Below, piece after piece: positions 1,736 through 19,385 of a DNA stretch of 37,334 nt; position 1 is the stretch's first letter, and every line of letters begins with the position of its first letter. A program made the translations under genes and the position numbers. Origin of the DNA: Rhodoplanes serenus (GTDB lineage: Bacteria > Pseudomonadota > Alphaproteobacteria > Rhizobiales > Xanthobacteraceae). The notes under the pieces are model-generated. The model was given only the letters and a program-made list of their open reading frames with translations. It was not told the DNA's origin and did no database searches. The stretch lies in NCBI GenBank assembly GCA_945861855.1, contig CAMAWG010000023.1:1-37334 (forward strand). The letters run 5' to 3'.

Positions 1736-2602
1736 ATGTATGCGGTCGTCGGAGCCACCGGAAACACCGGGCGGGCAGTGGTCAAGGAACTCAAAGGCCT
1801 GGGCGAGAGCCCGGTCTGCATCGTCCGCAACGCCGATAAGGCAAAAGAGGTGCTCGGCGCGGACACCAAGACCGCGGTGGCGGAGCTTGACGACCGCGGG
1901 GCCTTGCAAAAGGCGCTGGCCGGAGCCAAGCGCGTGTTCATCGTCACCGGGCACAATCCGAAATCGGATGTCCAGCAGATCAATGTGATCGAGGCCGCCA
2001 AGGCGGCGGGCGCCGAATACATCGTCAAGGTGTCCGGCGGCCGCGACGTGATCGGTCCGGACGTGGAATCGATCAACGGCCAGGCGCATCACAAGATCGA
2101 GGAGCACCTCAAGAAGAGCGGTCTGCAATGGTGCATCCTCAGCCCCGGCCTGTTCATGCAGAACATCATGGGGCAGGCGGCCTCGATCAAGAACGACGGC
2201 AAGATCGTGCAGCCGTGGCCGAAGGATCTGCCGGTGGCGCTGATCGACGTGCGCGACACCGGTGCGGTCGGCGCGCGGGTGCTGCGCGATCCGGCCAAGC
2301 ACGCCGGCAAGATGTATGTCTTCTCCGGGGTTGGCACCACGTTCGGCGACTTCGCCAACGTGATCGGCGAGGCGCTGGGCAAGCCCATCACCTATGTCGC
2401 GGTCACGCTCGAACAGGCCGAGGCGGCCCTGAAGGCGCGCAACATGCCGGATTGGCTTGTCACGCACCTGATCGCGATCGCGCGGGCCGGCGGCAAGGGC
2501 GCGTTCTCCAAGGAGAACACGCAGCCGATCCGCGACATCGTCGGCCGCGAACCGATCACGACCAAGCAGTTCGTGCAGGATTACAAGGCGGCGTTTGGCT
2601 GA
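1736..2602 (+). CDS. NmrA-like / atypical SDR NAD(P)-binding protein
   Basis: Atypical short-chain dehydrogenase fold, NmrA/HSCARG type. The 288-aa protein opens with the dinucleotide-binding loop GATGNTG at residues 6-12, directly after the first beta strand. Central regions such as YIVKVSGG and WCILSPGLFMQN match the NAD(P)H-binding family that includes NmrA-type redox sensors and quinone oxidoreductase QOR2 (ytfG). There is no classical YxxxK catalytic pair, which fits an NmrA-type protein but leaves enzymatic activity uncertain. The start is the ATG at 1736, preceded by GAGGAAG; a GTG at 1721 lies upstream of that ribosome-binding site and is less likely. It follows the FMN reductase by 28 nt on the same strand. 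A palindromic repeat follows the stop codon. Confidence 0.87.
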   Translation: MYAVVGATGNTGRAVVKELKGLGESPVCIVRNADKAKEVLGADTKTAVAELDDRGALQKALAGAKRVFIVTGHNPKSDVQQINVIEAAKAAGAEYIVKVSGGRDVIGPDVESINGQAHHKIEEHLKKSGLQWCILSPGLFMQNIMGQAASIKNDGKIVQPWPKDLPVALIDVRDTGAVGARVLRDPAKHAGKMYVFSGVGTTFGDFANVIGEALGKPITYVAVTLEQAEAALKARNMPDWLVTHLIAIARAGGKGAFSKENTQPIRDIVGREPITTKQFVQDYKAAFG

Positions 2603-2618
2603 GAGTGGGCGTCTCGTG

Positions 2619-2737
2619 TCCCGGGTGCAGTGCGGCACGAAGTGCTGCGCTGCAGACCCGGGACCCCGGTTTCTTTTCAATAAAAAGCTGGACCCCGCGT
2701 CTGCGGTGCACCGCTGCGCGCTGCACCGCGCGCGGGG
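2619..2737. repeat. Bipartite palindromic intergenic repeat
   Basis: Two adjacent GC-rich palindromes fill the 156-bp convergent gap between the NmrA-like gene and the cupin gene. The first spans 2619-2663, with outer arms TCCCGGG/CCCGGGA and an inner stem made of TGCAGTGCGGCAC and its near complement. The second spans about 2693-2737, with outer arms CCCCGCG/CGCGGGG and inner arms GCGGTGCA/TGCACCGC. A short A/T-rich linker, TTTCTTTTCAATAAAAAGC, separates them. The architecture resembles dispersed extragenic palindromes of Bradyrhizobium-like genomes, but I cannot search for other copies. It could also act as a bidirectional transcription stop, since the flanking genes converge here. Confidence 0.6.
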
Positions 2738-2758
2738 AACGTCGTTGCGCTGCGGATG

Positions 2759-3337
2759 TCAGCCCACCGGCTCCTCGAACTTGAATCCGATAGTCTGGAG
2801 GCCCTCCAGCGCCTTCTTCCCGTATTCGTTCTCGATTTCCTTGCCGAGGCTCGGCGCGTAGGTGATCGGGTCGACCTGCTGGTCGGTCTCCGGCACGATC
2901 ATCACCAGCAGGCGGCCGACCTCGTCGGAGATGTTGAAGAACATGCGATTCTCGCCGCGTGGGATCGAGATCATGTCGTTGGGCTCGAGGATCGTCTTGT
3001 GCTGGCCATCGTCGCCCCACGAAATCTCGAACCGGCCGCACAGGCAGAAGAAGTTCTCCACTGTGTTGAGATGGCGGTGCAGGCCCGGGCCGTTGTGCGG
3101 CGGGCATTCGGCGATGCTGACGATGAGCCCGCGCGGTCCCTTCACCGGGGCGCCGGCGCTGCGGCCCTGATAGTCCGGGGGCACCATCACCGGAAACACC
3201 TTGCGGGCGGTGACCTTCTCGACCGCGCCGGGCGGGATGTTGTGGGCCTCGAAATTCTGGCGCTGGTAGGTCTGCAGCTTGTTGAAACGGGCGGTGCGGG
3301 ATTCCATCTGCTCGGGCGTCAGCGATTTCGTGGTCAT
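2759..3337 (-). CDS. Small single-domain cupin protein
   Basis: A 192-aa cupin-fold protein. Cupin motif 1 is visible as PGLHRHLNTVENFFCLCGRFE (about residues 84-104), giving His87, His89 and Glu94 as metal ligands. Motif 2, near EPNDMISIPRGENRMFFN, has Arg131 where the third metal-binding His is normally found, so metal binding may be altered or absent. The ATG at 3337 follows GGAGG; the longer open frame upstream runs antiframe through the aminotransferase and is not real. It is the last gene of the eight-gene minus-strand run and starts 50 nt after the aminotransferase stop. Family members include small dioxygenase-like and sugar-binding cupins. I cannot assign a substrate. A role in the same pathway as its neighbours is inference. 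Confidence 0.88.
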   Translation of the reverse strand: MTTKSLTPEQMESRTARFNKLQTYQRQNFEAHNIPPGAVEKVTARKVFPVMVPPDYQGRSAGAPVKGPRGLIVSIAECPPHNGPGLHRHLNTVENFFCLCGRFEISWGDDGQHKTILEPNDMISIPRGENRMFFNISDEVGRLLVMIVPETDQQVDPITYAPSLGKEIENEYGKKALEGLQTIGFKFEEPVG

Positions 3338-3387
3338 GGCGCGTCCTCCGGCGTTGGGGCCATTCTCCACCAAACCGGCCGGGCAGG

Positions 3388-4617
3388 CTAGCCGCGCTTG
3401 ACGTTGGATATGCGTGTGGGCACCCCGAACTCGCGGTGGCAGACCTCGGCCAGGACCGCGATACCCTTGCGAATCTCGTCGTGGGTCGGGCTCGCGAAGC
3501 AGAGCCGCATCCGCGATCTGCTGTGGGGCTTGTTCACCGACCATTCCGGGCCGGGATTGATGGCGACGCCGGCCGCGAGTGCCGGCTGGTAGAGCTTCAA
3601 CGTGTCGACGTTGTCGGGCAGCTTCACCCACAGGAAGATGCCGCCCTTCGGCTCCTCGAACTCGGCCGCGGTGCCGAACTGCTCGTTGAGCGATTCCATC
3701 AACGTGTCGAGCTTGTTGCGCAGACCCCGCGTCAGCTCGGGGATGTGCGCGGAAAAATGCGACGCGCAGTATTCCGCCAGCACCATCTGCTCCAGCGCGC
3801 CGGAGCCCGCGTCGAATTTGATCGAGAGCATGCGCGACAGGATCGCCCAGGGCGCGACGATGTAGCCGACGCGCAGCGCTGGCGCGACCGATTTCGAGAA
3901 CGAGCCGATGTGGATGACGTTGGCGCTCTTGCTCATGGCATGGAGCGCCGGAGGCCGCTTGTGATCCCAGATTAGGTCGGCGTAGCAGTCGTCCTCGAAG
4001 ATCGGCACGCCATGCGCCTCGGCGAGCCTGAGCATTTCCGTGCGGCGCTGCTCCGGCAATATGCTGCCGGTCGGATTCTGCACGGTCGGGATGATGTAGA
4101 TGTATTTCGCGCGGACGCCGCAGCGCTTGAGATCGTCGAGCGCCGTGGCGAGCGCGTCCATCCGCATGCCGTCCTTGTCGAGCGGGATGCCGACCACGTT
4201 GACACCCATGCGCGTCAGGCGGTTGATCGAGCCCTGGTAGCATTCCTGCTCGATGATGACGGTGTCGCCGCGCGCGAGCAGAACGCCGTTGACCAGGTCG
4301 ATGGCCTGGAGCGAGCCCGAGGTGACCAGGATTTCGTCGGCGGTGCAGACGATGCCTGCGTCGCGCTTGAGCTTCTGCACGAGGAAATCGCGGAGCGCAC
4401 GGTAACCCTGGGGGCCGCTCTCAAGGCCGTAGGTGGCGAGCGTGCGGCCCTCGCGCCTGAGCACCGCGTCGGCGGCCGAAATAATGCCGTCGAGCGGCAA
4501 TTCGTCGGCATCGTTGTTGCCGCCGGTGAAATTGTATTTTGGCGAACCGGTCCATTTGACCGCAGGCGCCGGGAGACCTGCAGGCAGCAGCGGCGCGAAG
4601 TCGAAGGCATTGCTCAT
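3388..4617 (-). CDS. PLP-dependent aminotransferase, fold type I (LysN/2-aminoadipate type)
   Basis: Fold-type-I aminotransferase of 409 aa without the GntR DNA-binding N-terminus seen in MocR regulators. The Schiff-base lysine is Lys242 in SFSKSVAPALRVGY. Other cofactor residues are visible: the phosphate-side SGSLQAIDLV near residues 100-109, Asn181 in QNPTG, and Asp210/Tyr212 in EDDCYADL. This arrangement is typical of 2-aminoadipate, aromatic and branched-chain aminotransferases of the LysN group; the amino donor and substrate remain open. I chose the ATG at 4617, which has AAGG about 10 nt upstream; the next in-frame ATG at 4644 lacks a ribosome-binding site. It sits 36 nt after the P450 stop and 50 nt before the cupin, within the same minus-strand run. 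Confidence 0.92.
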   Translation of the reverse strand: MSNAFDFAPLLPAGLPAPAVKWTGSPKYNFTGGNNDADELPLDGIISAADAVLRREGRTLATYGLESGPQGYRALRDFLVQKLKRDAGIVCTADEILVTSGSLQAIDLVNGVLLARGDTVIIEQECYQGSINRLTRMGVNVVGIPLDKDGMRMDALATALDDLKRCGVRAKYIYIIPTVQNPTGSILPEQRRTEMLRLAEAHGVPIFEDDCYADLIWDHKRPPALHAMSKSANVIHIGSFSKSVAPALRVGYIVAPWAILSRMLSIKFDAGSGALEQMVLAEYCASHFSAHIPELTRGLRNKLDTLMESLNEQFGTAAEFEEPKGGIFLWVKLPDNVDTLKLYQPALAAGVAINPGPEWSVNKPHSRSRMRLCFASPTHDEIRKGIAVLAEVCHREFGVPTRISNVKRG

Positions 4618-4653
4618 GGATGGCGGCCTTTGTGATGCGGGCATTCTACACTG

Positions 4654-5883
4654 CTAGGCGCGGACAGCGACGGGATAGCGGAGGAAGCCGCGGAACCGCG
4701 CCCGGCCGCCGCGGGTGGGCTGGCCGGCGCGCTCGATTGTCCTGAACCGGCGGACGAGCCTGCCGATCGCCACCTGGGCCTCCATCCGCGCCAGCGAATT
4801 ACCGGCGCACGTGTGGATGCCGAAGCCAAAGGCGAGATGGCGGTTGGGGTGGCGGCGGATGTCGAGCCGGTCGGGATCGGGGAATTGGTCGGGGTCTCGG
4901 TTGGCTGCGCCGATGCAGAGATGCACGTAGGTTCCAGCCGGCATGATGGTATCGCCGAGACGCGTGTCGAGCGCCGCGCGGCGGTTGCCAAGCTGATTGG
5001 AACTCTCCATCCGCAGAAATTCCTCGACCGCGGTCTCGATGGCTTCCGGATGCGCCGCGAGGTCGCGCAGCGCGTCCGGGTTGCGCAGCAGAAGATCGAC
5101 GCTGTTGCCGATCAGGTTCGTCGTGGTTTCGTGGCCGGCGTTTAGAAGGAAGATGCAATTGTGCAGGAGCTCCGGCTCCGACAGCCGGTCGTCCTTGTCG
5201 CTTCCTGCCGCGATCTCGCTGGCATCGATCAGGGTCGAGAGAATTTCGCCGCTGTCCTGCACCGTTTCCCGCTGGCGGCGGGCGACGAGATCGCGCAGGT
5301 AGGTCTTGAACTCGGTGACCGCGGCGACGCCGCCGTCGAACTGCTCCTTCGACAGCACCGGCTCCAGGGCGCCGAGAATCTTCAGCGACCAGTTGCGGAG
5401 CGGGCCGCGCTCGGATTGCGGAATGCCGAGCAGATCGCCAATGAGCTGCACCGGGATGGCGGCGGAAAAATCCTCGATCAGGTCGATGCTGCCGCGCTGT
5501 TCGGCCGAATCGAGCAGCCGGTCCACCAGCGCCTCGATGCGCGGCTGCATGGCGCGAAGCGTGCGCGGCGTGAACGACGGCGCCAGGAGCTTGCGGACGC
5601 GGGTGTGGATCGGCGGATCGTTGAAGACAAGGCTCGTGGTGTGGTGCTCGTAGAGCAGGCTGTCGCCGAAGTTCGGCTTGAACTGGATCTTCTTGTCCGA
5701 GCTCCAGGTTTTCGTATCGCGATAGACCTCGACCAGATCGTCGTAGCGGGTGAGGAAATACGAGCCATCGGGCATGCGGTGCACCGGATTGTGCTCATGC
5801 AGCGCCCGGTAGGTCGGGTAGGGGTCGTCGAGGAAGGCGCGGTCGAGGCTCGCGAGATTGAACGATGCGGCCGGCGGCTGCAT
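4654..5883 (-). CDS. Cytochrome P450 (soluble bacterial class I type)
   Basis: A 409-aa cytosolic P450 monooxygenase. All signature elements are present: I-helix AGHETT at residues 249-254 for oxygen activation, the K-helix E288-x-x-R291, and the heme loop FGFGIHTCAG at 352-361 with Cys359 as thiolate ligand. Length and lack of a membrane anchor fit the bacterial class I type, which receives electrons from a ferredoxin and a ferredoxin reductase. Neither partner is encoded in the window. The start at 5883 lies only 7 nt after the preceding dehydrogenase stop, implying co-transcription; the ribosome-binding site is weak. In this context a hydroxylation or demethylation step on an imported small molecule is plausible, but the substrate cannot be deduced. 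Confidence 0.96.
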   Translation of the reverse strand: MQPPAASFNLASLDRAFLDDPYPTYRALHEHNPVHRMPDGSYFLTRYDDLVEVYRDTKTWSSDKKIQFKPNFGDSLLYEHHTTSLVFNDPPIHTRVRKLLAPSFTPRTLRAMQPRIEALVDRLLDSAEQRGSIDLIEDFSAAIPVQLIGDLLGIPQSERGPLRNWSLKILGALEPVLSKEQFDGGVAAVTEFKTYLRDLVARRQRETVQDSGEILSTLIDASEIAAGSDKDDRLSEPELLHNCIFLLNAGHETTTNLIGNSVDLLLRNPDALRDLAAHPEAIETAVEEFLRMESSNQLGNRRAALDTRLGDTIMPAGTYVHLCIGAANRDPDQFPDPDRLDIRRHPNRHLAFGFGIHTCAGNSLARMEAQVAIGRLVRRFRTIERAGQPTRGGRARFRGFLRYPVAVRA

Positions 5884-5890
5884 GGCGCAG

Positions 5891-6772
5891 CTATGCCAGC
5901 CCGCTGGCGCGCGCCTGCTCGAGTGCCATGACGGCCCAGTCCTTGTCGCCGTCGCCGTGGGCGACCGCGCCGACGAGCCGGTCTCGCCAGACGTTGCCGC
6001 TGGGTAATGGCACGCCCTTGAGGCCGCCGGCCTCCAGCGCCAGGTTGGCGTCCTTCAGCCCCAGCACCGCCATCTGGCCAACCTTGCTATAGCTCTCGTC
6101 CACCATGATCTTGCCGTAGACCTTGTAGGCCGAGCAGTTGAACAGTCCGTCGGTCATCACATCGTAGAAGACACTCGTCTCCACGCCGTATTTTCGCGTG
6201 AGCGCAAAGCCTTCGCCCATCGCCTCCATGGCGCAGCCGAGAACGAAATTGTTGGCGATTTTCATGGCGGTCGCAGCCTCCGGATCGGCGCCGCCCTCGA
6301 AGGTGCGCCGAGCGATGGCTCCGAACAGCGGTTTGCACCTGGCCAGCGCATCGGCTGGCCCCGAAGCGAAGACGCCTGCCGTGCCTGACGAAACGAGCTC
6401 CGGCCGGCCCATCATGGGAGCGGCCACCAGGATCTGGCCTTTCTCGGCGTGCGCCTGCTTGATCTTGCGGATGAGCGGAATGCCGTGGGTGCCGGCGCAG
6501 ACGTGGATGCCGCCCTTCGGCAGCGAGGCGAGAAGGCCTTCGCTCCGAAACACGACATCTTCCAGCGCCGCGTCATCGGCCAGCATGGTGTAGGCGACAT
6601 CGCCGTAGCGGGCCGCATCGGCGACCGAGCCGAGGATTTTGGCGCCTGCGTCCGCCAGCGGCCTGGCCTTCTCGGGCGTGCGGTTGTAGACGCCGATATC
6701 GTGCTTGGCGTCGAGCAGACGGAGGACCATGGCCCCGCCCATGCGGCCCGTCCCGATGAAACCGACCTTCAT
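5891..6772 (-). CDS. 3-hydroxyisobutyrate dehydrogenase-family beta-hydroxyacid dehydrogenase
   Basis: A 293-aa NAD(P)-dependent dehydrogenase of the 6-phosphogluconate/3-hydroxyisobutyrate dehydrogenase superfamily. The Rossmann loop is GTGRMG at residues 7-12. The second half has the family catalytic lysine, Lys171, with Asn175 one helical turn on, in KIANNFVLG. The substrate-binding loop is recognisable near VAAPMMGRPELVSSGTAGVF, although the usual DAPVSGG is replaced by AAPMMGR, so substrates may differ from 3-hydroxyisobutyrate. GAGGG lies seven nt before the ATG at 6772. It is spaced 27 nt from the EboE-like gene and 7 nt from the P450, which suggests one transcript. Related enzymes reduce tartronate semialdehyde, succinic semialdehyde or 4-hydroxybutyrate-type substrates. 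Confidence 0.9.
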   Translation of the reverse strand: MKVGFIGTGRMGGAMVLRLLDAKHDIGVYNRTPEKARPLADAGAKILGSVADAARYGDVAYTMLADDAALEDVVFRSEGLLASLPKGGIHVCAGTHGIPLIRKIKQAHAEKGQILVAAPMMGRPELVSSGTAGVFASGPADALARCKPLFGAIARRTFEGGADPEAATAMKIANNFVLGCAMEAMGEGFALTRKYGVETSVFYDVMTDGLFNCSAYKVYGKIMVDESYSKVGQMAVLGLKDANLALEAGGLKGVPLPSGNVWRDRLVGAVAHGDGDKDWAVMALEQARASGLA

Positions 6773-6799
6773 GGTAAGACCCTCGCTATTTCCGTTGGA

Positions 6800-7996
6800 C
6801 TACTGAAGCTGGCCCTTAACCCATTCGATTTCGCGCGAGACGTAGTCGACGATGTCGCCGGTCTTGAGATGATCCGGCAGCACGTCCCAGGTGTAGGTCT
6901 CGATCTCGAGCTGGCGCGACAGGGGCTTGGCCTTGTGGAATTTCAGCGCGTCCTCGATGGCGAAGCGGGTGGTGCCGAACTCGCCGAGATCGTCGAGGAA
7001 CACCGGCACATGGAAATGCGTGCGCCATTCGCGCGGGCCGGGATCGGTCTCCCAGGCCTCGAAGGCGTCTTCGAGGTTGAGGAAGCGGTTGAGCTTGCCG
7101 TCCTTTTTCTCGACGGTCTGCGTGAGATAAATTGTCTTCGCGTAACGCCGGAGCGTATCGACGTTCTGCTGCGTCACGTTCGGGATCCGCAAGGCGGCGG
7201 CTTCCTGCAGCTTGAAAATGGGAATGCCGGCGTCCACGAGCTTCTGCAGCGACACGGCGATGTCCTCGTACACCACCGCCTGATGGCAGATGTCGAACAC
7301 GGTGCCAATGAAACGGCGCTGCGCGACGATCGCCTCGGAGATCGGCAGGCCGGAAAACCTCGCCAGCATCTCGGCGGATTTTCCGGTGTAGAGGTGGTTG
7401 GTGAAGTAGTCGACCGTCTCGTCGGTGGTCTCGAGGAAGCAGAACGGCTCGGGCTCAAGTGCCAAGGTCACGGTGCGGCCGGTGCGCCTTTCGAGATCGA
7501 TCAGGCGGGCCGCCACCCGCATCACATGCTCGGTGTAGCTGTCGATCACGGCCTTGCCGGTGACGTTGGGCTTGAAGCCCAAGGGCGCGCTCTGGATCGA
7601 GGGCGAAATTCCAATTGGCACCACGTCGGCGAGAATTTCTGCGACGTTCATGGTGTATTGCGTGCGCTCCTCCGAGCGCCAGTCAGGCTCGTAGACCTGC
7701 TCTTTGACGATCTGGTTCTTGAACGGGCCGTAGGGGAACGCGTTGACCGTGTAGAGATACATGTTGTTGTCGGCGAGGAAACTCTTCAGCTTGTCGCGCT
7801 CGGGCTTGCTCTTCACCAGCGTCGAGGCCGACGAATTCGACAGCCGCAGCGACACGCCGAACGGCGCGGTGGGACAGACCCGCTTCTGCACCTGCGGGAC
7901 ATAGGTGGTGAGCGACGTCCACATGTCCTCCCAAGTGTCGCCGGGATGCACGAGCGTCGAATAGGTTAGGTGGCCGAGGCCCTTGCCGAGGTCCAT
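6800..7996 (-). CDS. EboE-like sugar-isomerase-type TIM barrel protein
   Basis: A 398-aa protein of the xylose-isomerase-like TIM barrel superfamily, resembling EboE, the 'metabolite traffic' member of cyanobacterial and bacteroidetal ebo clusters. Recognition is from memory of family features: the N-terminus GLGHLTYSTLVHPGDTWEDM, then FGVSLRLSNSSA, the stretch AFPYGPFKNQIVKEQVYEPD followed by WRSEERTQYT, and LEPEPFCFLET with the presumed metal-binding glutamate. The ATG at 7996 has AAGGAAG at correct spacing; the longer upstream frame overlaps the Gfo/Idh gene and is not real. Other ebo genes (eboA-D, eboF) are absent. Its neighbours are a Gfo/Idh/MocA oxidoreductase 17 nt upstream and a beta-hydroxyacid dehydrogenase 27 nt downstream, a partnership often seen in sugar or polyol catabolism. 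The reaction is unknown. Confidence 0.82.
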   Translation of the reverse strand: MDLGKGLGHLTYSTLVHPGDTWEDMWTSLTTYVPQVQKRVCPTAPFGVSLRLSNSSASTLVKSKPERDKLKSFLADNNMYLYTVNAFPYGPFKNQIVKEQVYEPDWRSEERTQYTMNVAEILADVVPIGISPSIQSAPLGFKPNVTGKAVIDSYTEHVMRVAARLIDLERRTGRTVTLALEPEPFCFLETTDETVDYFTNHLYTGKSAEMLARFSGLPISEAIVAQRRFIGTVFDICHQAVVYEDIAVSLQKLVDAGIPIFKLQEAAALRIPNVTQQNVDTLRRYAKTIYLTQTVEKKDGKLNRFLNLEDAFEAWETDPGPREWRTHFHVPVFLDDLGEFGTTRFAIEDALKFHKAKPLSRQLEIETYTWDVLPDHLKTGDIVDYVSREIEWVKGQLQ

Positions 7997-8013
7997 TGTT
8001 CTTCCTTTTTTGA

Positions 8014-9039
8014 TCAGGCGATCTTTTCGACTTTGCCGCTCGCCGCCGAGCGGATCACCGCTTCGCTCACCGAGGCGCCGTGGATGATCTGTTCGGGCGG
8101 AATGGGGAAGGGCGCTCCGCCCTCGGCCGCGCGGGCAAAAGCCTCCAAGGTGGCGCGCACGATGTCGAGCTTCTCGGCCTCCCAGGTCTCGAGCGGCCCC
8201 TTGACCGGCTGGAACTTGCAGGCGCCGAACTGCCGGGTTCGCCGCTCTTCCGAGGACGCGCCCGAAGTATGGGTCACGCCTTCGATGCGATGCCAGCCCT
8301 TGGAGCCATAGACCTGGAAGGCGAAAACTGCGCCGGTGGTGGTCATGGTGCCGAGATAGCCCGACACGCCGTTCTTCATGCGGAACAGCATCGAGGTGGT
8401 GTCGTCGGTCCCGGTCTGCACCACGCGGGCGAAGCTTTGGCAATAGACGTGGTCGATCTCGCCCATGAGATAGATCATCGCGTCGATGGCATGCACGCCC
8501 ATCGGCGCAAGGCCACCCAGCGGCGCTTCCGATTTATTGGAGCGCCACGCCGTCGGCGGCAGGAATAGCGCGTTCGGGTAGGTCATGCTGGCTTCGATAT
8601 GCTGGACGATGCCAAGCTCGCCCGCCTTGATGCGGTCGCGCAGCTTGATCATTTCCGGATGGAAGCGGCGATTGTAGCCGACGCCGACGACCCGCTTGGC
8701 CTTTTTCAGTGCCGCGATGGCCTGCTCCGCCTCCTCCTTCGTGAAGGTGAACGGTTTCTCGCAATAGACATGTTTACCCGCGGCGGCCGCGGCCTCGATC
8801 TGCCGCAGATGGCCCGATGCCGGGGTCGCCAGTACCACTGCGTCGATCTTAGAGTCTTTCAGCACCGCCTCGTAGCTCGGCGCGATGGCCAGCGAATGCT
8901 GCTTGGCAAAAGCCTCGTCGTCGGGCTTCACGGTGCGGGTCTGGATGGTGGTGATGCGCATGGGCGGACTGCCGCCTGCAAGCGACTCCACCATCGTCTT
9001 GCCCCAGGTGCCCAGTCCGACAACCGCCGCGTTGATCAT
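8014..9039 (-). CDS. Gfo/Idh/MocA family oxidoreductase
   Basis: A 341-aa NAD(P)-dependent oxidoreductase of the glucose-fructose oxidoreductase/inositol dehydrogenase family. The Rossmann loop GLGTWG occupies residues 8-13, and the diagnostic EKP triad is at Glu94-Lys95-Pro96 in YCEKPF, with Lys95 the presumed catalytic lysine. The C-terminal half is the alpha/beta substrate domain, with GVHAIDAMIYLMGEIDHVYC matching the conserved helix of the family. I used the ATG at 9039; an in-frame TTG at 9051 would add four residues. It lies 19 nt after the DoxX gene and 17 nt before the EboE-like gene. Members oxidise cyclic polyols, sugars or amino sugars, and some act on aromatic or heteroaromatic adducts, so the substrate is open. 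Confidence 0.92.
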   Translation of the reverse strand: MINAAVVGLGTWGKTMVESLAGGSPPMRITTIQTRTVKPDDEAFAKQHSLAIAPSYEAVLKDSKIDAVVLATPASGHLRQIEAAAAAGKHVYCEKPFTFTKEEAEQAIAALKKAKRVVGVGYNRRFHPEMIKLRDRIKAGELGIVQHIEASMTYPNALFLPPTAWRSNKSEAPLGGLAPMGVHAIDAMIYLMGEIDHVYCQSFARVVQTGTDDTTSMLFRMKNGVSGYLGTMTTTGAVFAFQVYGSKGWHRIEGVTHTSGASSEERRTRQFGACKFQPVKGPLETWEAEKLDIVRATLEAFARAAEGGAPFPIPPEQIIHGASVSEAVIRSAASGKVEKIA

Positions 9040-9058
9040 GTTTTTCTTCAATCTTCGC

Positions 9059-9436
9059 TTACTTCGGCCACGTCAGCATGGCGAGCGCGATGCAGGCGAA
9101 CATCCAGAACACGCAGTATTCGATGCCGCCGATCACCCAGATCCATTTCTTGGTGACCTTGTAGGTGGCGGCGCCGGCGACGAGCAGATGGAACGCTGCG
9201 ATGGCCGCGACGTAGGGCGTGTAGATGTCGAAAATGAGCCCGATCGCCAGGAAGGTTTCGATGGTGCCGGCGATGTACATCCAGGTCGCCGGCGGATTGA
9301 ACTTGGCGGCCTTGAAGAAGCCCAAGGTGGCGGGCTCGGTGAACTTGCCGACGATGTGCGGGATGAAGAACAGCCCGCAGATCAGGCGCAGCAGCACGAT
9401 CCCGTTGAGCAGGTTGAATTTGTCAGCCCACGACAT
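9059..9436 (-). CDS. DoxX family inner-membrane protein
   Basis: A 125-aa membrane protein with four predicted helices at about residues 9-27, 48-68, 74-92 and 98-120. The first part, LRLICGLFFIPHIVGKF, matches the DoxX family, and the whole protein has the usual length. DoxX-type proteins are small quinone-linked or redox-associated membrane subunits, named for the thiosulfate:quinone oxidoreductase subunit of Acidianus; most bacterial members are uncharacterised. It sits between the NTF2-like gene (79 nt upstream) and the Gfo/Idh oxidoreductase (19 nt downstream). A role in passing electrons from the operon's dehydrogenases into the quinone pool would fit but is inference. Confidence 0.88.
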   Translation of the reverse strand: MSWADKFNLLNGIVLLRLICGLFFIPHIVGKFTEPATLGFFKAAKFNPPATWMYIAGTIETFLAIGLIFDIYTPYVAAIAAFHLLVAGAATYKVTKKWIWVIGGIEYCVFWMFACIALAMLTWPK

Positions 9437-9515
9437 GCTTTCCCCCGTGGCGTGATTTTCAGTTCATTTCAATGGATTGTGGGTGATGGTGCAAGGGCGG
9501 ACTATGACTGTGCCC

Positions 9516-10154
9516 TCACCACCCGATCTTCTTGTTGCCCTTGAGCCAGCCCGCCCCCAAGGCGTAGAGCGCGTCGGTCCCCGGCCCATCGACCCCCGGC
9601 ATGTCGTCCTTCACCTTGTAGCCCACCTTGGTCTGCAGATAGGCGAGGTGGCGGTAGCCCACGGGGAACCGCGCGAGCAGCTTGGGATCGAGCTTGGGCG
9701 CCTTGGCCGGATCGACCGGAGCGATCTGGTCCTTCTCGTAGGTCAGCCGGCGCCAGACCAGACCCCACGTCCCCTTCCGCTTCTCCAGGAAGTCGTAGAA
9801 CCGGCCGATGCAGATCACATCGCACTCCACGCCCTCGACCACGGCGCGCTGCGAGATCGACATCTTGGTCTGGGCGATGGCGCGCTTGCCTTTGATGTCG
9901 ATCGAGGAGCCGCCGAGGAAGTGATAGATACGCACGCCCTTGGCGTAGCCCGCCCGGTTCGCCGCGATGAACTCCTCGTAGGTGCCCTGAAACCAGGTCG
10001 CCCACATCCGGCCTTCCGGGTGCCAGACGGTGCGGAAGCGGTCCCACTGGAAGCTGTCGCGCCACACCGCCCAGTTCTCAATCAGCTCGCGGATGGCGAG
10101 CTTGTCCTCCAGGTCTTTTTTGAACAGGTCTTTGGTGAAGTCGACCTTCTTCAT
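9516..10154 (-). CDS. NTF2-like / SnoaL-fold protein
   Basis: A 212-aa protein whose N-terminal 140 residues look like a SnoaL-like NTF2-fold domain: helix LAIRELIENWAVWRDSFQWDRF, then WHPEGRMWATWFQGTYEEF, then alternating beta strands ending near GLVWRRLTYEKD. The remaining 70 residues, from about 143, form an extra C-terminal segment containing RFPVGYRHLAYLQTKVGY. SnoaL-fold proteins include polyketide cyclases, dehydratases, ketosteroid isomerases and the small subunits of ring-hydroxylating dioxygenases. No signal peptide is visible. The ATG at 10154 follows GGAGGACAA. It is the first gene of the eight-gene minus-strand run, divergent from the short-chain dehydrogenase. A dehydratase or isomerase role is plausible, not shown. 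Confidence 0.85.
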   Translation of the reverse strand: MKKVDFTKDLFKKDLEDKLAIRELIENWAVWRDSFQWDRFRTVWHPEGRMWATWFQGTYEEFIAANRAGYAKGVRIYHFLGGSSIDIKGKRAIAQTKMSISQRAVVEGVECDVICIGRFYDFLEKRKGTWGLVWRRLTYEKDQIAPVDPAKAPKLDPKLLARFPVGYRHLAYLQTKVGYKVKDDMPGVDGPGTDALYALGAGWLKGNKKIGW

Positions 10155-10202
10155 TTGTCCTCCCCGCTTCCGGCTGGCGCCGGCCGCCGCGCTGCTCTAG
10201 CC

Positions 10203-10210
10203 TTTGCAAA
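10203..10210. promoter_or_regulatory. Palindrome in the divergent NTF2-like/SDR intergenic region
   Basis: The 79-bp gap between the divergent NTF2-like gene and the SDR gene contains the 8-bp perfect palindrome TTTGCAAA, followed by A/T-rich sequence (ACATTAAGC) that stands out against GC-rich surroundings. Both transcripts must start near here, so the site could be part of a promoter or an operator. The palindrome is too short to prove a binding site, and no regulator gene is adjacent. Confidence 0.25.
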
Positions 10211-10233
10211 CATTAAGCACAGGCGAGGGTGGT

Positions 10234-10998
10234 ATGGCGAGACTTGAGGGACGCACCGCAATTGTCACCGGCGGAGCGGTGGGCATCGGCCGGCACTATT
10301 CGGAGGCGCTCGCCGCCGAAGGCGCGCAGGTGATGATCGCCGACATCAAGGACGGATCTAGCCTCGCCGCCGAGATCGCCGCCAGGCACGGCCGCAACTC
10401 CACCGACAGCATGACGTTCGACGTGAGCGACGAGGCGCAGTGCAAGGCGCTGGTGGCGAAGACCATTGAGCGCTTCGGCAAGATCGACATCCTGATCAAC
10501 AACGCCGCGCTCTACGCGCCGCTGCCGACGCTGAAGGTCACCGAGATGGACGTCGATCTCTGGGACAAGGTGATGGCGATCAACATCAGGGGCCCGTTCC
10601 TGATGGTCAAGCATGTGGCGCCGCACATGATTGCGAAAAAATACGGCAAGATCGTCAACATCGGCTCGGGCACGGTCGCGCGCGGCATCCCCGACTTCTC
10701 GCACTACGTCACCTCGAAGGGCGCGGTGACGGCGTTCACCCGTTGCATGTCGCGGGAGCTCGGCGCGCATGGCATCTGCGTCAACACGCTGGCGCCGGGC
10801 TATACGCTGTCCGATACCGGGCTGACCAACACGGTGCATGTGGAGCAGTCGAAGGCTGCCGCAGTGGCGCGCCGGGCGCTTAAGCGCGACCAGTTCCCGG
10901 AGGACCTCTTGGGAAGCTTGATCTTTCTCTGCTCCAGCGACAGCGACTTCATGACCGGCCAGTTGCTGGCGGTCGATGGCGGCTCGAACAACACTTGA
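10234..10998 (+). CDS. SDR family oxidoreductase (classical short-chain dehydrogenase)
   Basis: A 254-aa classical SDR, likely cytosolic and NAD(P)-dependent. The cofactor loop TGGAVGIG is at residues 12-19, the structural NNAA motif at 89-92, and the catalytic Ser145, Tyr158 and Lys162 (YVTSK) are all present. The C-terminal PxxxS-type region is LAPGYTLSDTGL, and the protein ends with the usual GQLLAVDGG signature. I chose the ATG at 10234, preceded by GAGGG; an in-frame TTG at 10204 would add ten residues without a better ribosome-binding site. It is transcribed away from the eight-gene run and toward the gentisate-dioxygenase-like gene 170 nt downstream, so it may act in the same catabolic route, for example oxidising an alcohol side chain or a dihydrodiol. 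Confidence 0.93.
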   Translation: MARLEGRTAIVTGGAVGIGRHYSEALAAEGAQVMIADIKDGSSLAAEIAARHGRNSTDSMTFDVSDEAQCKALVAKTIERFGKIDILINNAALYAPLPTLKVTEMDVDLWDKVMAINIRGPFLMVKHVAPHMIAKKYGKIVNIGSGTVARGIPDFSHYVTSKGAVTAFTRCMSRELGAHGICVNTLAPGYTLSDTGLTNTVHVEQSKAAAVARRALKRDQFPEDLLGSLIFLCSSDSDFMTGQLLAVDGGSNNT

Positions 10999-11108
10999 TT
11001 CGCAGGGAATAGGCCGCTGTCCCTGCCAGGGCCGGCGGAAGCCCCGCAATTGGCGAATACCGCCTGCCGCAGCCGCGCGGCTACCAATTTGCCGGAAAAT
11101 CGCTATGT

Positions 11109-11137
11109 AAAGGGCAACCCAAGCGAATTTGCCCTTT
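11109..11137. promoter_or_regulatory. 9-bp inverted repeat upstream of the gentisate-dioxygenase-like gene
   Basis: A perfect inverted repeat AAAGGGCAA / TTGCCCTTT with an 11-nt spacer ends 31 nt before the start codon of the dioxygenase-like gene. The lack of a following T-run and the position suggest an operator for a dimeric regulator or a leader hairpin rather than a terminator of the upstream SDR gene. No regulator is encoded nearby, so the cognate protein is unknown. Confidence 0.45.
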
Positions 11138-11168
11138 CCGAAGGGCCGGGAATTCCAAGGAGAATCCG

Positions 11169-12224
11169 ATGTCCGTCGCCGCCACCGTCGATCCCAAGCA
11201 CAACGTGCAGGGCAACCGTCAAGCCTACTACGACAAGATCAGCAAGAAGGACATGGCGCCGCTATGGGAGGTGCTCCGCCACGTCGTCACCAAGGAGCCG
11301 AAGTCGAAGTGCGCTCCGAACATCTGGAAATACGACGACGTCAAGAAGCTGATGCTGGAGGCGGGCGACGTGATTTCCGCCGACGAGGCCGAGCGCCGCG
11401 TGCTGGTGCTGGAGAACCCCGCCATGCGCGGCCAGTCGCGTATCACCAACAGCCTGTTCGCGGGCGTCCAGCTCATCATGCCGGGTGAGATCGCCGAGGC
11501 GCACAAGCACGTCTCGTCGGCGATCCGCTTCGTGCTCGAAGGCGAGGGCGCCTACACGGCGGTCGAAGGCGAGAAGGCCAACATGTCGCGCGGCGACTTC
11601 ATCCTCACGCCGAACTGGGCGCCGCACGACCACGGCAATCCGGGCAAGCAGCCGGTGATCTGGCTCGACGTGCTCGACATGCCGACCGTCAACCACTTCG
11701 AGACCTCGTTCATGGAGCACTTCGACGAAAAAGCGCAGAACACCGACCGCCAGGACGGCGACTCGCTGGCGCGTTATGGTTCGGGCGTGCTGCCGGACGG
11801 CTCGATGGACACGTTCATCAAGCGCAGCCCGGTCATCAACTACACCTATGTCCGGACCAAGCCGATCCTGGAGCGGCTGAAGAAGGCCGGCGACATCGAC
11901 CCGCGTCACGGCGCCCGCGTGCGTTATTCGAATCCGGTTACCGGCGGTCACGTGATGCAGACCATGGGCGCCTACCTGGCGCTGTTCCCGAAGGGCTTCA
12001 AGGGCCAGGACTACCGCTCGACCGACAGCACGATCTTCGTTTGCGTCGAGGGCCACGGCACCACCAAGGTCGGCGACAAGGTGCTGGAGTGGGGCCCGAA
12101 CGACGTGTTCGTGGTGCCGTCATGGCACCGCTATTCGCACGACGTGAAGGACGAGGCGGTGCTGTTCTCGATCTCAGACAAGCCGGCGCAGGAAGCGCTC
12201 GGCTTCTGGCGCGAGGGGCAGTAG
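11169..12224 (+). CDS. Gentisate 1,2-dioxygenase-like bicupin
   Basis: A 351-aa bicupin related to gentisate, salicylate and 1-hydroxy-2-naphthoate dioxygenases, which cleave a hydroxylated aromatic ring using Fe(II) and O2. The N-terminal cupin carries His112 and His114 (AHKHVSSAIRF) and His153 (APHDHGN), matching the three-histidine iron site of the family; GEGAYTAVEGEK and FILTPNWAPHDHGN are close to family consensus. The C-terminal cupin (KVGDKVLEWGPNDVFVVPSW, then HRYSH) completes the two-domain fold. AAGGAG lies at ideal distance before the ATG at 11169. No maleylpyruvate isomerase or fumarylpyruvate hydrolase gene is present, so it need not act on gentisate itself. It ends at a strong hairpin terminator. 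Confidence 0.88.
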   Translation: MSVAATVDPKHNVQGNRQAYYDKISKKDMAPLWEVLRHVVTKEPKSKCAPNIWKYDDVKKLMLEAGDVISADEAERRVLVLENPAMRGQSRITNSLFAGVQLIMPGEIAEAHKHVSSAIRFVLEGEGAYTAVEGEKANMSRGDFILTPNWAPHDHGNPGKQPVIWLDVLDMPTVNHFETSFMEHFDEKAQNTDRQDGDSLARYGSGVLPDGSMDTFIKRSPVINYTYVRTKPILERLKKAGDIDPRHGARVRYSNPVTGGHVMQTMGAYLALFPKGFKGQDYRSTDSTIFVCVEGHGTTKVGDKVLEWGPNDVFVVPSWHRYSHDVKDEAVLFSISDKPAQEALGFWREGQ

Positions 12225-12253
12225 TTCTCGCCCGCTCCATTGTGGATTTGCCG

Positions 12254-12277
12254 ATGCCCCGCCGAAAGGCGGGGCAT
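12254..12277 (+). terminator. Hairpin terminator after the dioxygenase-like gene
   Basis: A 10-bp perfect stem, ATGCCCCGCC / GGCGGGGCAT, is closed by the stable tetraloop GAAA and followed by TTGCTTT. It starts 30 nt after the dioxygenase-like stop codon and lies before the convergent TRAP permease gene stop. The T-tract is short and interrupted, and the minus-strand side has none, so it should work mainly for the plus-strand gene. Confidence 0.75.
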
Positions 12278-12282
12278 TTGCT

Positions 12283-14436
12283 TTAGGCCGGCGCTGCCGC
12301 AGCAGCCTTTCGCCGCCGCCGCAGGTGGTCGATCACCAGGAGCACGATCCCTGCGGCTATGCCAATGAAATTGATGGTATGCCCGCCGGTGAAGCTCTCA
12401 GGCGGCAGCGCGATCGGCAGCGCCACGACGCAGTAGACGACCCGCATTGGGAATGACAGCGGCGCGAGCGCGAACCCGACGATCCCGGCCGTGCCGACGA
12501 ACAGCGCGAACAAAATGCGCACCAGGTTCCACACGATCAGATAGCTCGGGCCGTCCATCAAGAGGCTGGGCGTCAGCACAAACAGGAACGGCAGGATGAA
12601 CGTGCTCCAGCCGACCGCGCAGGCGACCCAGCCGGTGGTCCAGCCGTCGGTGCGCGCGATGTTGGCCGCGGCATAGGCGGCGAAGGCGACCGGCGGCGTG
12701 ATCATCGACAGCATGCCGTTGTACATGACGAACATGTGGGCGGCCATCGGCGTGACGCCGAGCTTGATCAGCGCGGGCGCCAGCAGCGTCGCCGTCAGGA
12801 TGTAGACGCTCACCGTCGGCAGGCCGATGCCGAGCACGAAGGCGAGGACCGCGATCAGCAGCAGCAGCAGGAACACGTTTTCGCCGGACAGCGTCAGGAG
12901 TTGCATCGTCATGCCGAAGGCAAGGCCGGAGATGCTCATGATCCCGACCATGATGCCGGCGGCGGCGCCGATCAGGATGATGTCGAGCGACACCCGCCCC
13001 GACTCGATGACCGCGACCGCGATCTGCCTCAGCGAGACGCGCTTGCCGCGATAGCCGAAGATCAGCGCGAACACGATCAGGATGCCGGTTGCGGCGACCG
13101 CGGCCTTCTCCGGCGTCAGCAGCAGCACCTCGGGATAGATCAGCGCGATGACGAGAAAGAAGATCGGCACCAGGAAGTGCCACCCTGATGTGAGCACGCT
13201 GGTGAGCGAAGGCATTTCCTCGTCGTCGACGCCGCCGATGCCTTGCTTCGCCGCTTCCAGGTCGACGTGGATGAACAGGCAGCTGTAATAGAGCAGCGCC
13301 GGAATGGCGGCGGCGATGCAGACCGTGCCGTAGGAGACCTGCAGGAACTCCGCCATGATGAAGGCCGCCGCGCCCATCACCGGCGGCATGAGCTGGCCCC
13401 CGGTCGAGCCGACCGCTTCAAATGCCGCCGCGCGGCGCCGGGTGAATCCCGACTTGATCATGGCCGGGATGGTGACCTGGCCGACGGCGAGAACGTTCGA
13501 AACGGCACTCCCCGAGATCATTCCGAACAGCGCCGAGCCGACCACCGCGATCTTGGCGGCGCCGCCGCGGAATCTCCACATCGCCGACATCGCGAGGTCG
13601 GAGAAGAAATCCGCGCCGCCGGTGCGCGCCAGAACCTGGCCCAGGATGGTGTAGGGGATTACGATCAGCACCGCGACCTGGAGGATGTTGCCGATCATGC
13701 CGTTCACGTCGAGGCCGACGTAGGCGACCATGCGCTCGGGGCTGACCCAGCGGGTCTGGAAGTCCCCGCCCAGGAACGGGCTGACATAGACGTAGCCGGC
13801 GATCGCCAGGATGATCGCGACGAAGCCCCAGCCGGAGATGCGCCGGCTTGCATCCAGCACCAGGAAGGTCAGGATCGCGCTGCCGACGACGCCCTCGACC
13901 GGCAGCATCGCGAGCTCATAGGTCAACGCCTCGTAACGGACGGTGATATAGCCTGCCAGCAGCAGCGCAACGATGGCGCAGAGCCAGTCGAACCAGCGCG
14001 CGTATGCGGCCCGGCTGGCGGTGAAGGTCCAGGCCAGGGTGACCGCAAGGGCGCCGACCACCGGCCATGAGATGTCGCCCCGGGCGACATAGCGGTAGAT
14101 CAGATAGATGACGATGGCGCCCGCCGCGGTCAGGCCGCCAAGATCGATCGCGCTCGGCTGCCGCTTGGTCTCGGCGATGAAGGCGAGCGCGAGCGTGAGG
14201 CCGAGCGTCACCGCCAGAAGCTGCTCGGTGTAGAATGAAATGTTGAGGAGCTGGCGCGGGACGTCGAGCACCCAGAGAACGACGCAGGTCACCAGCAGTG
14301 TCTGAATGACGTTGGCCGCGAACACCGTCGCCTTCGACGATTCGGATGCAAACTCTTCCGCGCTAGCAATGAAGCGCTCCTCCGACGCGGCGGAGATGTG
14401 TTGAGCCGCATCGGAGCTAGTCGGCTTTTCGTTCAC
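12283..14436 (-). CDS. TRAP transporter fused permease (DctQ-DctM type)
   Basis: A 717-aa inner-membrane protein combining small and large TRAP membrane subunits. About residues 1-40 are cytoplasmic and hydrophilic. Helices from about 41 to 215 form the DctQ-like part. The DctM-like part follows, with the signature SGSAVSNVLAVGQVTIPAMI at 308-327, GIGLPTVSVYILTAT at 536-550 and ITPPVAFAAYAAANIA at 579-594. Such fused permeases partner with TAXI-type binding proteins and drive uptake with sodium or proton gradients. Three TAXI genes lie immediately upstream in the same direction, the nearest ending 15 nt before this start. Family members carry organic acids or amino acids. The substrate is unknown. 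Confidence 0.95.
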   Translation of the reverse strand: MNEKPTSSDAAQHISAASEERFIASAEEFASESSKATVFAANVIQTLLVTCVVLWVLDVPRQLLNISFYTEQLLAVTLGLTLALAFIAETKRQPSAIDLGGLTAAGAIVIYLIYRYVARGDISWPVVGALAVTLAWTFTASRAAYARWFDWLCAIVALLLAGYITVRYEALTYELAMLPVEGVVGSAILTFLVLDASRRISGWGFVAIILAIAGYVYVSPFLGGDFQTRWVSPERMVAYVGLDVNGMIGNILQVAVLIVIPYTILGQVLARTGGADFFSDLAMSAMWRFRGGAAKIAVVGSALFGMISGSAVSNVLAVGQVTIPAMIKSGFTRRRAAAFEAVGSTGGQLMPPVMGAAAFIMAEFLQVSYGTVCIAAAIPALLYYSCLFIHVDLEAAKQGIGGVDDEEMPSLTSVLTSGWHFLVPIFFLVIALIYPEVLLLTPEKAAVAATGILIVFALIFGYRGKRVSLRQIAVAVIESGRVSLDIILIGAAAGIMVGIMSISGLAFGMTMQLLTLSGENVFLLLLLIAVLAFVLGIGLPTVSVYILTATLLAPALIKLGVTPMAAHMFVMYNGMLSMITPPVAFAAYAAANIARTDGWTTGWVACAVGWSTFILPFLFVLTPSLLMDGPSYLIVWNLVRILFALFVGTAGIVGFALAPLSFPMRVVYCVVALPIALPPESFTGGHTINFIGIAAGIVLLVIDHLRRRRKAAAAAPA

Positions 14437-14451
14437 GCTACGCCTTTTCGA

Positions 14452-15417
14452 TCAGTAGGCCTTCGCCTCGATCTTCTTGTCCTGGAAGTATTTCAGCGCG
14501 CCGGGATGATAGGTCATGGTGTGCTTGCGATGCATCGTGTCCAGCGAGAAGTCGTTCATGGCCGGCGCCGTCGCCACCAGGTCCGGCTTGTTGTTCGCCA
14601 TCGTGTCGATGATCTTGGCGACGGTCTCATCCTTCATCTTGGAATTGGTGAACAGGATGTAGTCCATGGCGTAGACCTTCATCGGCTCGGCGACACCGAC
14701 GTAGGCCGGGATCGGCCTGACGTCGGAGAAGTAGCCGTAGGGGAATATCTTGCGGCTCGCTTCGAGGTTTGGGCCGACCTTGACGGCGCGCACGCCGCCG
14801 ACCGTGGCGTCGGCCTCGCGCACCTTGGGGCCCCCGAACGAGAACATGAACATGTCGTTGGCACCGGCCATGAAGTCGTCGCCGCCGCGCAGCACGTTGG
14901 GCACCATGACGGGCTTCACGTCGTTCAGCGTCAGGTCCGCGGTCGCCAGCATCGCCAGCGTGTTCTTGTCGAGCGTCCGCATTGCGGAGTAGCCGGCCGG
15001 CACGCGCTTGCCCTTGACGTCGGCCATGTTCACGATGCCGCTGTCCTTGCGGGCAAAGAAGCCGATGCGCAGCACGTAGATCGAGCCGATGATGCGCAGA
15101 TCGTTCTGCAGCTTTCCGGTCTCGATTCCTTCGACCACCTCCAGCATGTTGGCCATGCCGAGATCGATCTCGCCCTTGGCCACCATCGGGATCAGCACCG
15201 ACTCGCCCGCGGTGTTCTGAACCAGCGTGTTCAGGCCGCCCTTTTCCTTCAGCGTTTTGGCGATGGCGGACGCGACCGTGTGCGCCAGCGTGCCCGGCTG
15301 CATGGTGGCGAGGCCGTAGGTCTGCGCTGAGGCGGTCGGGCCGCCCAGGCCTGCGAGTGCCAAGGCCGTGCCGAGCAATCCACGCCGGAGCGCTTGTCCA
15401 AAGTCGATGACGTTCAT
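14452..15417 (-). CDS. TAXI family TRAP solute-binding protein (copy 1, next to the permease)
   Basis: A 321-aa periplasmic binding protein of the TAXI group. Residues 1-32 are a signal peptide ending in TASAQ. Family features shared with the two neighbouring paralogues include YGLATMQPGTLAHT at the mature N-terminus, GKRVPAGYSAMRT, GPKVREADATVGGVRAVKVG and the C-terminal YHPGALKYFQDKK. The ATG at 15417 is preceded by GGAGGGG; an in-frame start at 15435 lies upstream of that ribosome-binding site. It is the permease-proximal copy, 15 nt before the permease gene. It resembles copy 3 over YGLATMQPG more than copy 2, but I have no computed identity. Confidence 0.93.
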   Translation of the reverse strand: MNVIDFGQALRRGLLGTALALAGLGGPTASAQTYGLATMQPGTLAHTVASAIAKTLKEKGGLNTLVQNTAGESVLIPMVAKGEIDLGMANMLEVVEGIETGKLQNDLRIIGSIYVLRIGFFARKDSGIVNMADVKGKRVPAGYSAMRTLDKNTLAMLATADLTLNDVKPVMVPNVLRGGDDFMAGANDMFMFSFGGPKVREADATVGGVRAVKVGPNLEASRKIFPYGYFSDVRPIPAYVGVAEPMKVYAMDYILFTNSKMKDETVAKIIDTMANNKPDLVATAPAMNDFSLDTMHRKHTMTYHPGALKYFQDKKIEAKAY

Positions 15418-15474
15418 GTCACACCCCTCCCTCAAGTTCCTGTCATTTCGATAGACGGTTCGTGTGGCTTTGGG

Positions 15475-17421: not shown

Positions 17422-17562
17422 GTTGTTTTTCCTCCCTTGGGGCAATCATTGCACAGCGCCGGGAGCAAGGCTACGCGCCCAACAGGTGCCAAAACCGCCT
17501 TCAGGGCGGTCCGCCCGACCGTGAGCTGGTGCGTTGAGCGCGGCCGGACCGCGGCCTCCCCG

Positions 17563-19008: not shown

Positions 19009-19033
19009 GGCGCGTGCCCTCGGTGTTTCCCTT

Positions 19034-19085
19034 GGGTCCCGCGTCAGGCGGATTCTTTTTGCGCTCGTGTGAAGGCGCGGGACCC
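19034..19085 (-). repeat. 10-bp inverted repeat in the leader of the methyltransferase-like gene
   Basis: Perfect arms GGGTCCCGCG (19034-19043) and CGCGGGACCC (19076-19085) enclose a 32-nt spacer containing a short T-tract. It lies 26 nt upstream of the start codon at 19008. The arms recall the outer arms of the palindrome at 2619-2737, so it may be a decayed member of the same repeat family; it could equally fold in the transcript leader. Confidence 0.5.
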
Positions 19086-19132
19086 CTGTGGGAATGCGAC
19101 CAATTTCGCGGGTGGGGGTCAACCACAAACTC

Positions 19133-19180: not shown

Positions 19181-19385
19181 AGTAATTAGGATCATTAGAA
19201 GTTTCCATTCTTGCCCATTCCAGTACCGGCTTTGCCAAGAGGGAAGGCGCTTTCTGCCCACATCCGCCCACTCTGTGCCGATGAAAAATCCAATGAATTT
19301 CAGGGACTTATGGCGCGAGCCCGGGTGCGACGTGGGGCGAAGTGCGGTAGTGAACATCGTCACGAGCCGAACCGAAAGCGCGACC

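Follow-up and report, generated by a model that had tools for sequence, protein, structure and literature searches.

A conserved Gfo/Idh, EboE-like and beta-hydroxyacid dehydrogenase gene core within a mosaic cluster of Rhodoplanes serenus

Eight closely spaced genes on the minus strand of a Rhodoplanes serenus contig (CAMAWG010000023.1, assembly GCA_945861855.1) raise the question of whether they encode one pathway or several functions that happen to share a locus. The contig, henceforth referred to as the window, is 37,334 nt long and is contig 23 of a draft genome of 4.48 Mb that is 85% complete. An earlier note on this DNA had read the eight genes, at 2759–10154, as a single unit acting on one compound. 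Comparison across genomes showed that the cluster is a mosaic and not one conserved pathway, and identified within it a conserved, uncharacterised core of three genes that occurs in many environmental bacteria:

8014–9051, minus strand: Gfo/Idh/MocA oxidoreductase, Gfo hereafter (PF01408, PF22725, PF02894; start at TTG 9051 or ATG 9039)
6800–7996, minus strand: EboE-like TIM-barrel protein of 398 aa (NCBIfam TIM_EboE, 409 bits, cut-off 250)
5891–6772, minus strand: beta-hydroxyacid dehydrogenase of the 3-hydroxyisobutyrate dehydrogenase superfamily, HAD hereafter (PF03446, PF14833)

We lean modestly towards reading this Gfo/Idh–EboE-like–HAD cassette as the functional heart of the cluster and as probably catabolic; its target is probably a sugar-like compound, namely a polyol, cyclitol or glycoside.

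The core was traced by a scan of GTDB contigs with the EboE-like protein, from which the best 80 of 471 relatives were taken (59–97% identity over the best segment). Homologues of the window genes were counted at these loci by tblastn with a threshold of at least 40% identity. By record label the 80 loci belong to Pseudomonadota, Acidobacteriota and Actinomycetota, with a few unplaced, and most are metagenome-assembled genomes (MAGs); some labels are doubtful, such as MAGs called Bifidobacterium breve and a “Marinovum” row nested within actinobacteria. Six close Xanthobacteraceae loci were set aside to give the 74 other loci. Gfo and HAD homologues both lie within 3.5 kb of EboE at 39 of the 80 loci, in Pseudomonadota and Acidobacteriota, and at 33 of the 74. 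Gfo was found at 51 of 80 loci (at 47 on the same strand as EboE and no more than 1.5 kb away), HAD at 46 (45 so placed) and DoxX, a frequent companion of the core, at 21 (17 so placed). Homologues per kb at 0–3 kb versus 5–10 kb from EboE were 0.111 versus 0.004 for Gfo, 0.111 versus 0.002 for HAD and 0.043 versus 0.004 for DoxX over the 80 loci, and 0.106 versus 0.004, 0.106 versus 0.002 and 0.032 versus 0.004 over the 74, so that Gfo and HAD are each some 30–60 times denser near EboE. The pairwise distances of EboE, Gfo and HAD, compared at 33 loci chosen by clustering, are correlated (Mantel r 0.56, 0.74 and 0.56; 0 of 2000 permutations as high), as expected for genes travelling together, although shared descent alone could also yield such a correlation.

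Nearer to Rhodoplanes, the EboE-like protein is found in 12 of 149 genomes of the family including its own, the others at 67–96% identity, and in 14 of 297 genomes of the order at an E-value threshold of 0.001; besides the window copy, one of these order-level matches stands at 70% identity and the other 12 at 41–44%. The closest named matches are MAGs of Xanthobacteraceae, Hyphomicrobiales and Alphaproteobacteria.

The remaining genes of the run, and those that flank it, are as follows:

9516–10154, minus strand: SnoaL_4 (NTF2-like) protein (PF13577, at or above the gathering score)
9059–9436, minus strand: DoxX-family protein (PF07681)
4654–5883, minus strand: cytochrome P450 (PF00067; top PDB sequence match 8yhn, 235 bits)
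3388–4644, minus strand: class I/II aminotransferase-fold protein, pyridoxal phosphate type (PF00155)
2759–3337, minus strand: single-domain cupin of 192 aa (PF07883)
10204–10998, plus strand: divergent SDR oxidoreductase (PF13561)
11169–12224, plus strand: divergent gentisate 1,2-dioxygenase, GDO hereafter (TIGR02272, 487 bits, cut-off 442)
12283–14436, minus strand: TRAP permease (PF06808)
14452–15435, minus strand: first solute-binding-type gene after the TRAP permease (PF16868)
15475–16434 and 16468–17445, minus strand: two further solute-binding-type genes, taken as paralogues of the first from their translations and tblastn labels

The run itself is as the earlier note had described it, with eight genes in one direction separated, from SnoaL to cupin, by 79, 7, 17, 27, 7, 9 and 50 nt, and the divergent SDR and gentisate-dioxygenase-like genes are both real. 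Seven of the eight minus-strand genes reach the Pfam gathering score, the exception being the EboE-like protein, for which Pfam gave nothing at an E-value of 0.001. Third-position GC of 0.84–0.92 in every one of the eight is consistent with coding. The best NCBIfam match of the aminotransferase-fold protein is MocR-like PdxR, at 237 bits against a cut-off of 320; the alignment begins at model position 92 and the N-terminal part of the model is uncovered. A sigma-70-type scan of 2500–12400 returned one promoter-like site, inside the P450 gene, against 1.2 expected from shuffled sequence, and nine terminator-like sites against 7.7. Since neither count exceeds the shuffles in any telling way, there is no sign of internal boundaries, and a single transcript across the eight genes is possible.

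Gene content was compared at 13 relative loci, drawn from 12 of the 17 further genomes in which SnoaL was matched, together with G344; SnoaL-bearing genomes G311, G314, G316, G317 and G319 lie outside this table. SnoaL itself matches in 18 of 41 genomes including the window’s own (E-value 0.001), at some loci without the EboE core. EboE adjoins SnoaL at seven of the 13 loci, all seven of which also carry HAD, Gfo, DoxX, SDR and GDO, with TRAP at six, the aminotransferase at five, the cupin at three and the P450 at two (at least 40% identity). At the other six SnoaL is there and EboE is not; GDO is present at five, SDR at four, TRAP at four, the aminotransferase at two, DoxX at one, and Gfo, HAD and P450 at none. 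One of these six genomes, G308, carries EboE on another contig. Short contigs may conceal genes, as in G303, where the contig stops soon past the aminotransferase, and in G305, where it is 7.4 kb long. Four same-genus loci hold SnoaL, SDR, GDO and TRAP without Gfo, EboE and HAD. The presence or absence of EboE at SnoaL loci indicates that the core was either inserted into, or lost from, a SnoaL–SDR–GDO–TRAP locus. SnoaL thus goes mainly with SDR, GDO and TRAP, which constitute a second, separable module. Close relatives already differ in the P450, aminotransferase and cupin, which are optional and were added locally.

It is improbable, for these reasons, that the eight genes make up a single pathway in which one compound is oxidised, isomerised, hydroxylated by the P450 and transaminated before the SDR and gentisate dioxygenase take over. 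Tight spacing on one strand speaks for such a pathway, as do two relatives, G302 (locus L059) with the full gene order and G299 (locus L050) with the order kept save for the cupin. Against these stand the five of seven close relatives in which the P450 was not found and the two of seven without the aminotransferase, the existence of SnoaL–SDR–GDO–TRAP loci lacking the core, and the 74 other loci, where no P450 or aminotransferase homologue of at least 40% identity was detected. The density of P450, aminotransferase and SDR homologues is zero there, SnoaL occurs at one locus (L110), and the P450 has a homologue at one of all 80. The notion of one conserved eight-gene unit, with hydroxylation and transamination steps, is not supported. 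Neighbourhood comparison, which the earlier note had named as one way to challenge it, divides the proposal: the P450, aminotransferase and cupin are rarely found with the rest, and Gfo, EboE and HAD do recur together. The oxidation and isomerisation theme of the note is supported.

The automated label of the central protein, “metabolite traffic protein EboE”, was examined next to the EboE proteins of canonical ebo clusters (ebo-type). The TIM_EboE model scores 397–424 bits on six window-type proteins and 453–470 bits on four ebo-type proteins, all above the cut-off of 250, and both groups therefore receive one model name. The canonical proteins share with the window protein this NCBIfam model, 41–44% identity and the same ten polar residues. 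They differ in falling into a separate clade, the tree dividing 12 ebo-type from 81 window-type sequences at 100/100; as the ebo-type rows all come from one order, the tree does not settle the root of the family. Their genomes differ as well. A match to the EboA model, for which the ebo-type genomes served as positive control, was obtained in 12 of 12 of these and in 1 of 15 window-type genomes, and none was obtained in the window’s own genome, at its 85% completeness. An AroB-like gene adjoins EboE at the ebo-type locus L148 and has homologues at the 11 other ebo-type loci, and none of the 12 has a gene labelled Gfo or HAD. Membership of the window protein in a true ebo cluster was rejected on the separate clade, the EboA count and the lack of labelled Gfo and HAD at ebo loci.

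A role for the EboE-like protein as a genuine Ebo traffic component, helping to carry a product through the membrane with DoxX partnering it there, is accordingly very unlikely. Its support consists of the equivalog-model score of 409 against 250 bits, of the Nostoc work in which ebo A, B, C, E and F were each required for export of the scytonemin monomer, a “traffic” role that rests on deletion phenotypes (PMC6282210), and of one window-type genome, G395 (draft, 89% complete), that does carry EboA (contig 130, 4947–5360). That EboA gene lies on another contig than EboE, and the EboE search in G395 yielded the window-type copy only and no ebo-type EboE. Besides the absence of detectable EboA from the other 14 window-type genomes, the clade division and the ebo-type loci free of labelled Gfo and HAD, the neighbours of window-type genes, which include importers and catabolic-type enzymes, run counter to a traffic role. 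The description of the ebo genes (PMC5133447) holds that the substrate and reaction of EboE cannot be inferred. These comparisons suggest that the automated label misleads for the window-type group.

The fold predicted for the EboE-like protein is similar to those of keto-sugar epimerases and of a keto-glucal hydratase. An AlphaFold2 model built on 50 sequences (pLDDT 91.3, pTM 0.91) was compared with the PDB by Foldseek, giving as best match the L-xylulose-5-phosphate 3-epimerase UlaE (E-value 7.4e-9; template modelling (TM) score to the target 0.66–0.69), followed by the 3-keto-D-glucoside epimerase YcjR, SCO6571, Art22, the hydratase AtHYD, IolI, L-ribulose 3-epimerase and xylose and rhamnose isomerases. 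A Foldseek probability of 1.00 to UlaE, YcjR, AtHYD and IolI places the model in the xylose-isomerase-like TIM-barrel fold. At the sequence level, phmmer found no PDB relative at E-values up to 1, and a profile search at E-values up to 10 returned one chance hit, ICOS, at 2.3. Ten polar residues (E181, E183, D235, H238, K262, Q264, H327, H329, E364 and E366) do not vary across the 93 sequences aligned (81 window-type, 12 ebo-type); most of them lie in or just past strands counted from the DSSP string as barrel strands 4–8, and they fit a putative divalent metal site at the barrel mouth.

Two characterised systems come closest in logic, by analogy, to a cassette whose TIM-barrel enzyme would itself be distinct. 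In E. coli, YcjS is a Gfo/Idh-type and YcjQ a zinc-type dehydrogenase. The ycj cluster, as outlined in PMC11543891, combines two sugar dehydrogenases, a TIM-barrel isomerase and an ABC importer. The cassette would share this dehydrogenase, isomerase and importer logic, and YcjR ranks second when the distinct proteins matching EboE in structure are counted; the differences are that EboE shows no detected sequence relation to any PDB chain, exceeds the YcjR chain by about 135 residues and pairs with HAD, and that no phosphorylases occur among the families scanned. The second system comprises the Agrobacterium GlycDH–OGE–HYD operon and the gut DgpABC operons. We know of no HAD counterpart in these operons. 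They combine an oxidoreductase with a metal-dependent TIM-barrel beta-eliminase and hydratase (PMC10628242 and PMC8563793), a logic that the cassette would share, the course described in PMC10628242 being oxidation, elimination, hydration and reduction. They differ in that a DgpB-type partner was not named among the 20 window proteins scanned and in that no PDB sequence relation to EboE was detected.

Such operons invite a deglycosylation scheme, in which a plant C- or O-glycoside would be oxidised at C3 by the Gfo/Idh enzyme, EboE would beta-eliminate the aglycone at a metal site, and the P450 and gentisate dioxygenase would degrade the aglycone. We consider it unlikely. The operon logic is similar to that of the dgp and Agrobacterium genes, AtHYD is within the top 20 Foldseek rows, and in a Paraburkholderia locus (L101) EboE has a catechol-type dioxygenase gene some 8 kb away. 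The C-glycosidase metal ligands given in PMC8563793 are Glu147, Asp179, His269, Lys271 and Glu305, and by our own comparison the D235–H327–E364 spacing of EboE (92, 37) resembles that of Asp179–His269–Glu305 (90, 36), a match of sequence spacing that is not a superposition. On the other side, Pfam named no DgpB-type partner among 20 window proteins scanned, which are not every open reading frame (ORF) and to which no DgpB query was applied, and ring-cleavage genes are not among the recurrent neighbour families with scanned representatives.

Under the catabolic cassette reading, which we prefer, the steps that we infer would begin with the Gfo/Idh enzyme, which would use NAD(P)+ to turn a secondary alcohol of the substrate (polyol, cyclitol or glycoside) into a ketone. 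A divalent metal in the EboE-like enzyme would bind this keto compound, and the enzyme would, via an enediolate, isomerise it, epimerise it or beta-eliminate a substituent; HAD would then oxidise, or reduce, the product, a beta-hydroxy acid. In Actinomycetota the place of Gfo/Idh may be taken by a zinc alcohol dehydrogenase, accompanied by an ABC importer of the sugar type. The cassette of the window sits within the separable SnoaL–SDR–gentisate dioxygenase–TRAP locus, with the P450, aminotransferase and cupin as optional parts. The cluster points to a so far uncharacterised route of environmental bacteria, probably a catabolic one, and an EboE-related clade inside a simple dehydrogenase cassette offers a tractable way into EboE chemistry. 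The open-licence literature yielded no described pathway matching the window’s combination of genes, in agreement with the earlier note, and no match for the Gfo–EboE–HAD cassette was evident among the cyclitol and inosose papers listed.

Other lineages supply further companions. Families within six called genes of EboE at the 74 other loci were assembled by linking proteins loosely through blastp, and each takes its name from one scanned member or a few: M24 peptidase-like proteins (27 loci), zinc alcohol dehydrogenases (23), ABC ATPases (23), VOC/glyoxalase proteins (17), methionine synthase-like proteins (17), sugar-type binding proteins (16), XRE-cupin proteins (13), DoxX (10, plus a second DoxX cluster at 4), CobW (8) and parts of 2-oxoacid dehydrogenase (5–8). 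Many actinobacterial loci show the order binding protein/ABC, zinc alcohol dehydrogenase, M24, EboE. EboE is directly followed by a gene of 274–280 aa in two Paraburkholderia loci and one Caballeronia locus (L101, L108, L116); the L101 copy is a beta-keto acid cleavage enzyme (BKACE) by Pfam, which hints at a possible beta-keto acid downstream of EboE.

Several observations weigh against the catabolic cassette as proposed. The Gfo and HAD pair within 3.5 kb is missing at 41 of the 80 loci, and 14 of the 80 have less than 1.5 kb of sequence on at least one side. Companions vary by lineage (M24, CobW, methionine synthase-like, 2-oxoacid dehydrogenase, BKACE), so that more than one pathway may be involved, and the modular split is at odds with G302, where all eight genes are kept in order. 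Structural matches are at fold level (9–16% identity, query-normalised TM score 0.38–0.51, among the 50 rows listed) and hence do not fix the reaction. The assignment of metal ligands is a guess from where the residues fall on the strands, and a His on strand 6 is typical of tagatose-3-epimerase-type enzymes, where the EboE-like protein has Gln264.

A broader proposal, tentative and on balance somewhat unlikely, would make the whole EboE family metal-dependent keto-cyclitol or keto-sugar enzymes. In ebo clusters EboE would process the product of the sugar phosphate cyclase EboD, and “traffic” would follow indirectly from the absence of a molecule derived from a cyclitol; in the window-type clade the enzyme would serve to break down a related cyclitol once Gfo/Idh or a zinc dehydrogenase has oxidised it. 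If true, this would constitute a new catabolic route across Proteobacteria, Acidobacteria and Actinobacteria. Inositol catabolism is the nearest likeness by name, since the best NCBIfam name is IolG (TIGR04380) for the window Gfo and IolM for an actinobacterial zinc alcohol dehydrogenase. The inositol pathway was rejected as an identification because these scores (133.7 against a cut-off of 355 bits and 212 against 450) fall far short, and no inositol genes besides these two names were found among the scanned representatives.

The M24 companion was also considered as a dimethylsulfoniopropionate lyase or ectoine hydrolase, and both were rejected (L128 protein, 112 against 600 and 63 against 613 bits). 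A proteobacterial M24 query run against 27 genomes found close kin (73–91% identity) in 4 of 15 window-type genomes and at most 47% in the window’s own, so a close M24 protein is not a required partner in window-type genomes.

Further features were noted around EboE and in the window. The Paraburkholderia locus L101 (9407–12067; also L108 and L116, from cultured strains) joins to EboE and BKACE an upstream Dabb protein and an ABC importer of the sugar type. At the actinobacterial locus L138 (1298–3766; same cluster at L127, 3587–6064) an 822 aa protein close to EboE joins ABC ATPase and permease domains, as identified by Pfam on L138. Several binding proteins per TRAP permease is an unusual arrangement; the window has three similar binding-type genes in tandem after its permease, and relatives at L051, L064, L065 and L067 hold two to three such copies. 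An ORF of 521 aa at 17563–19128 (minus strand), with no Pfam match, has homologues by the locus in L048, L059, L064, L065, L066 and L069. A second xylose-isomerase-like TIM barrel (PF01261, 153 bits), which we read as hydroxypyruvate-isomerase-like, is encoded at 19275–20174 on the plus strand, about 9 kb from the cluster, and its homologues are also close to the locus in L060, L066 and L069.

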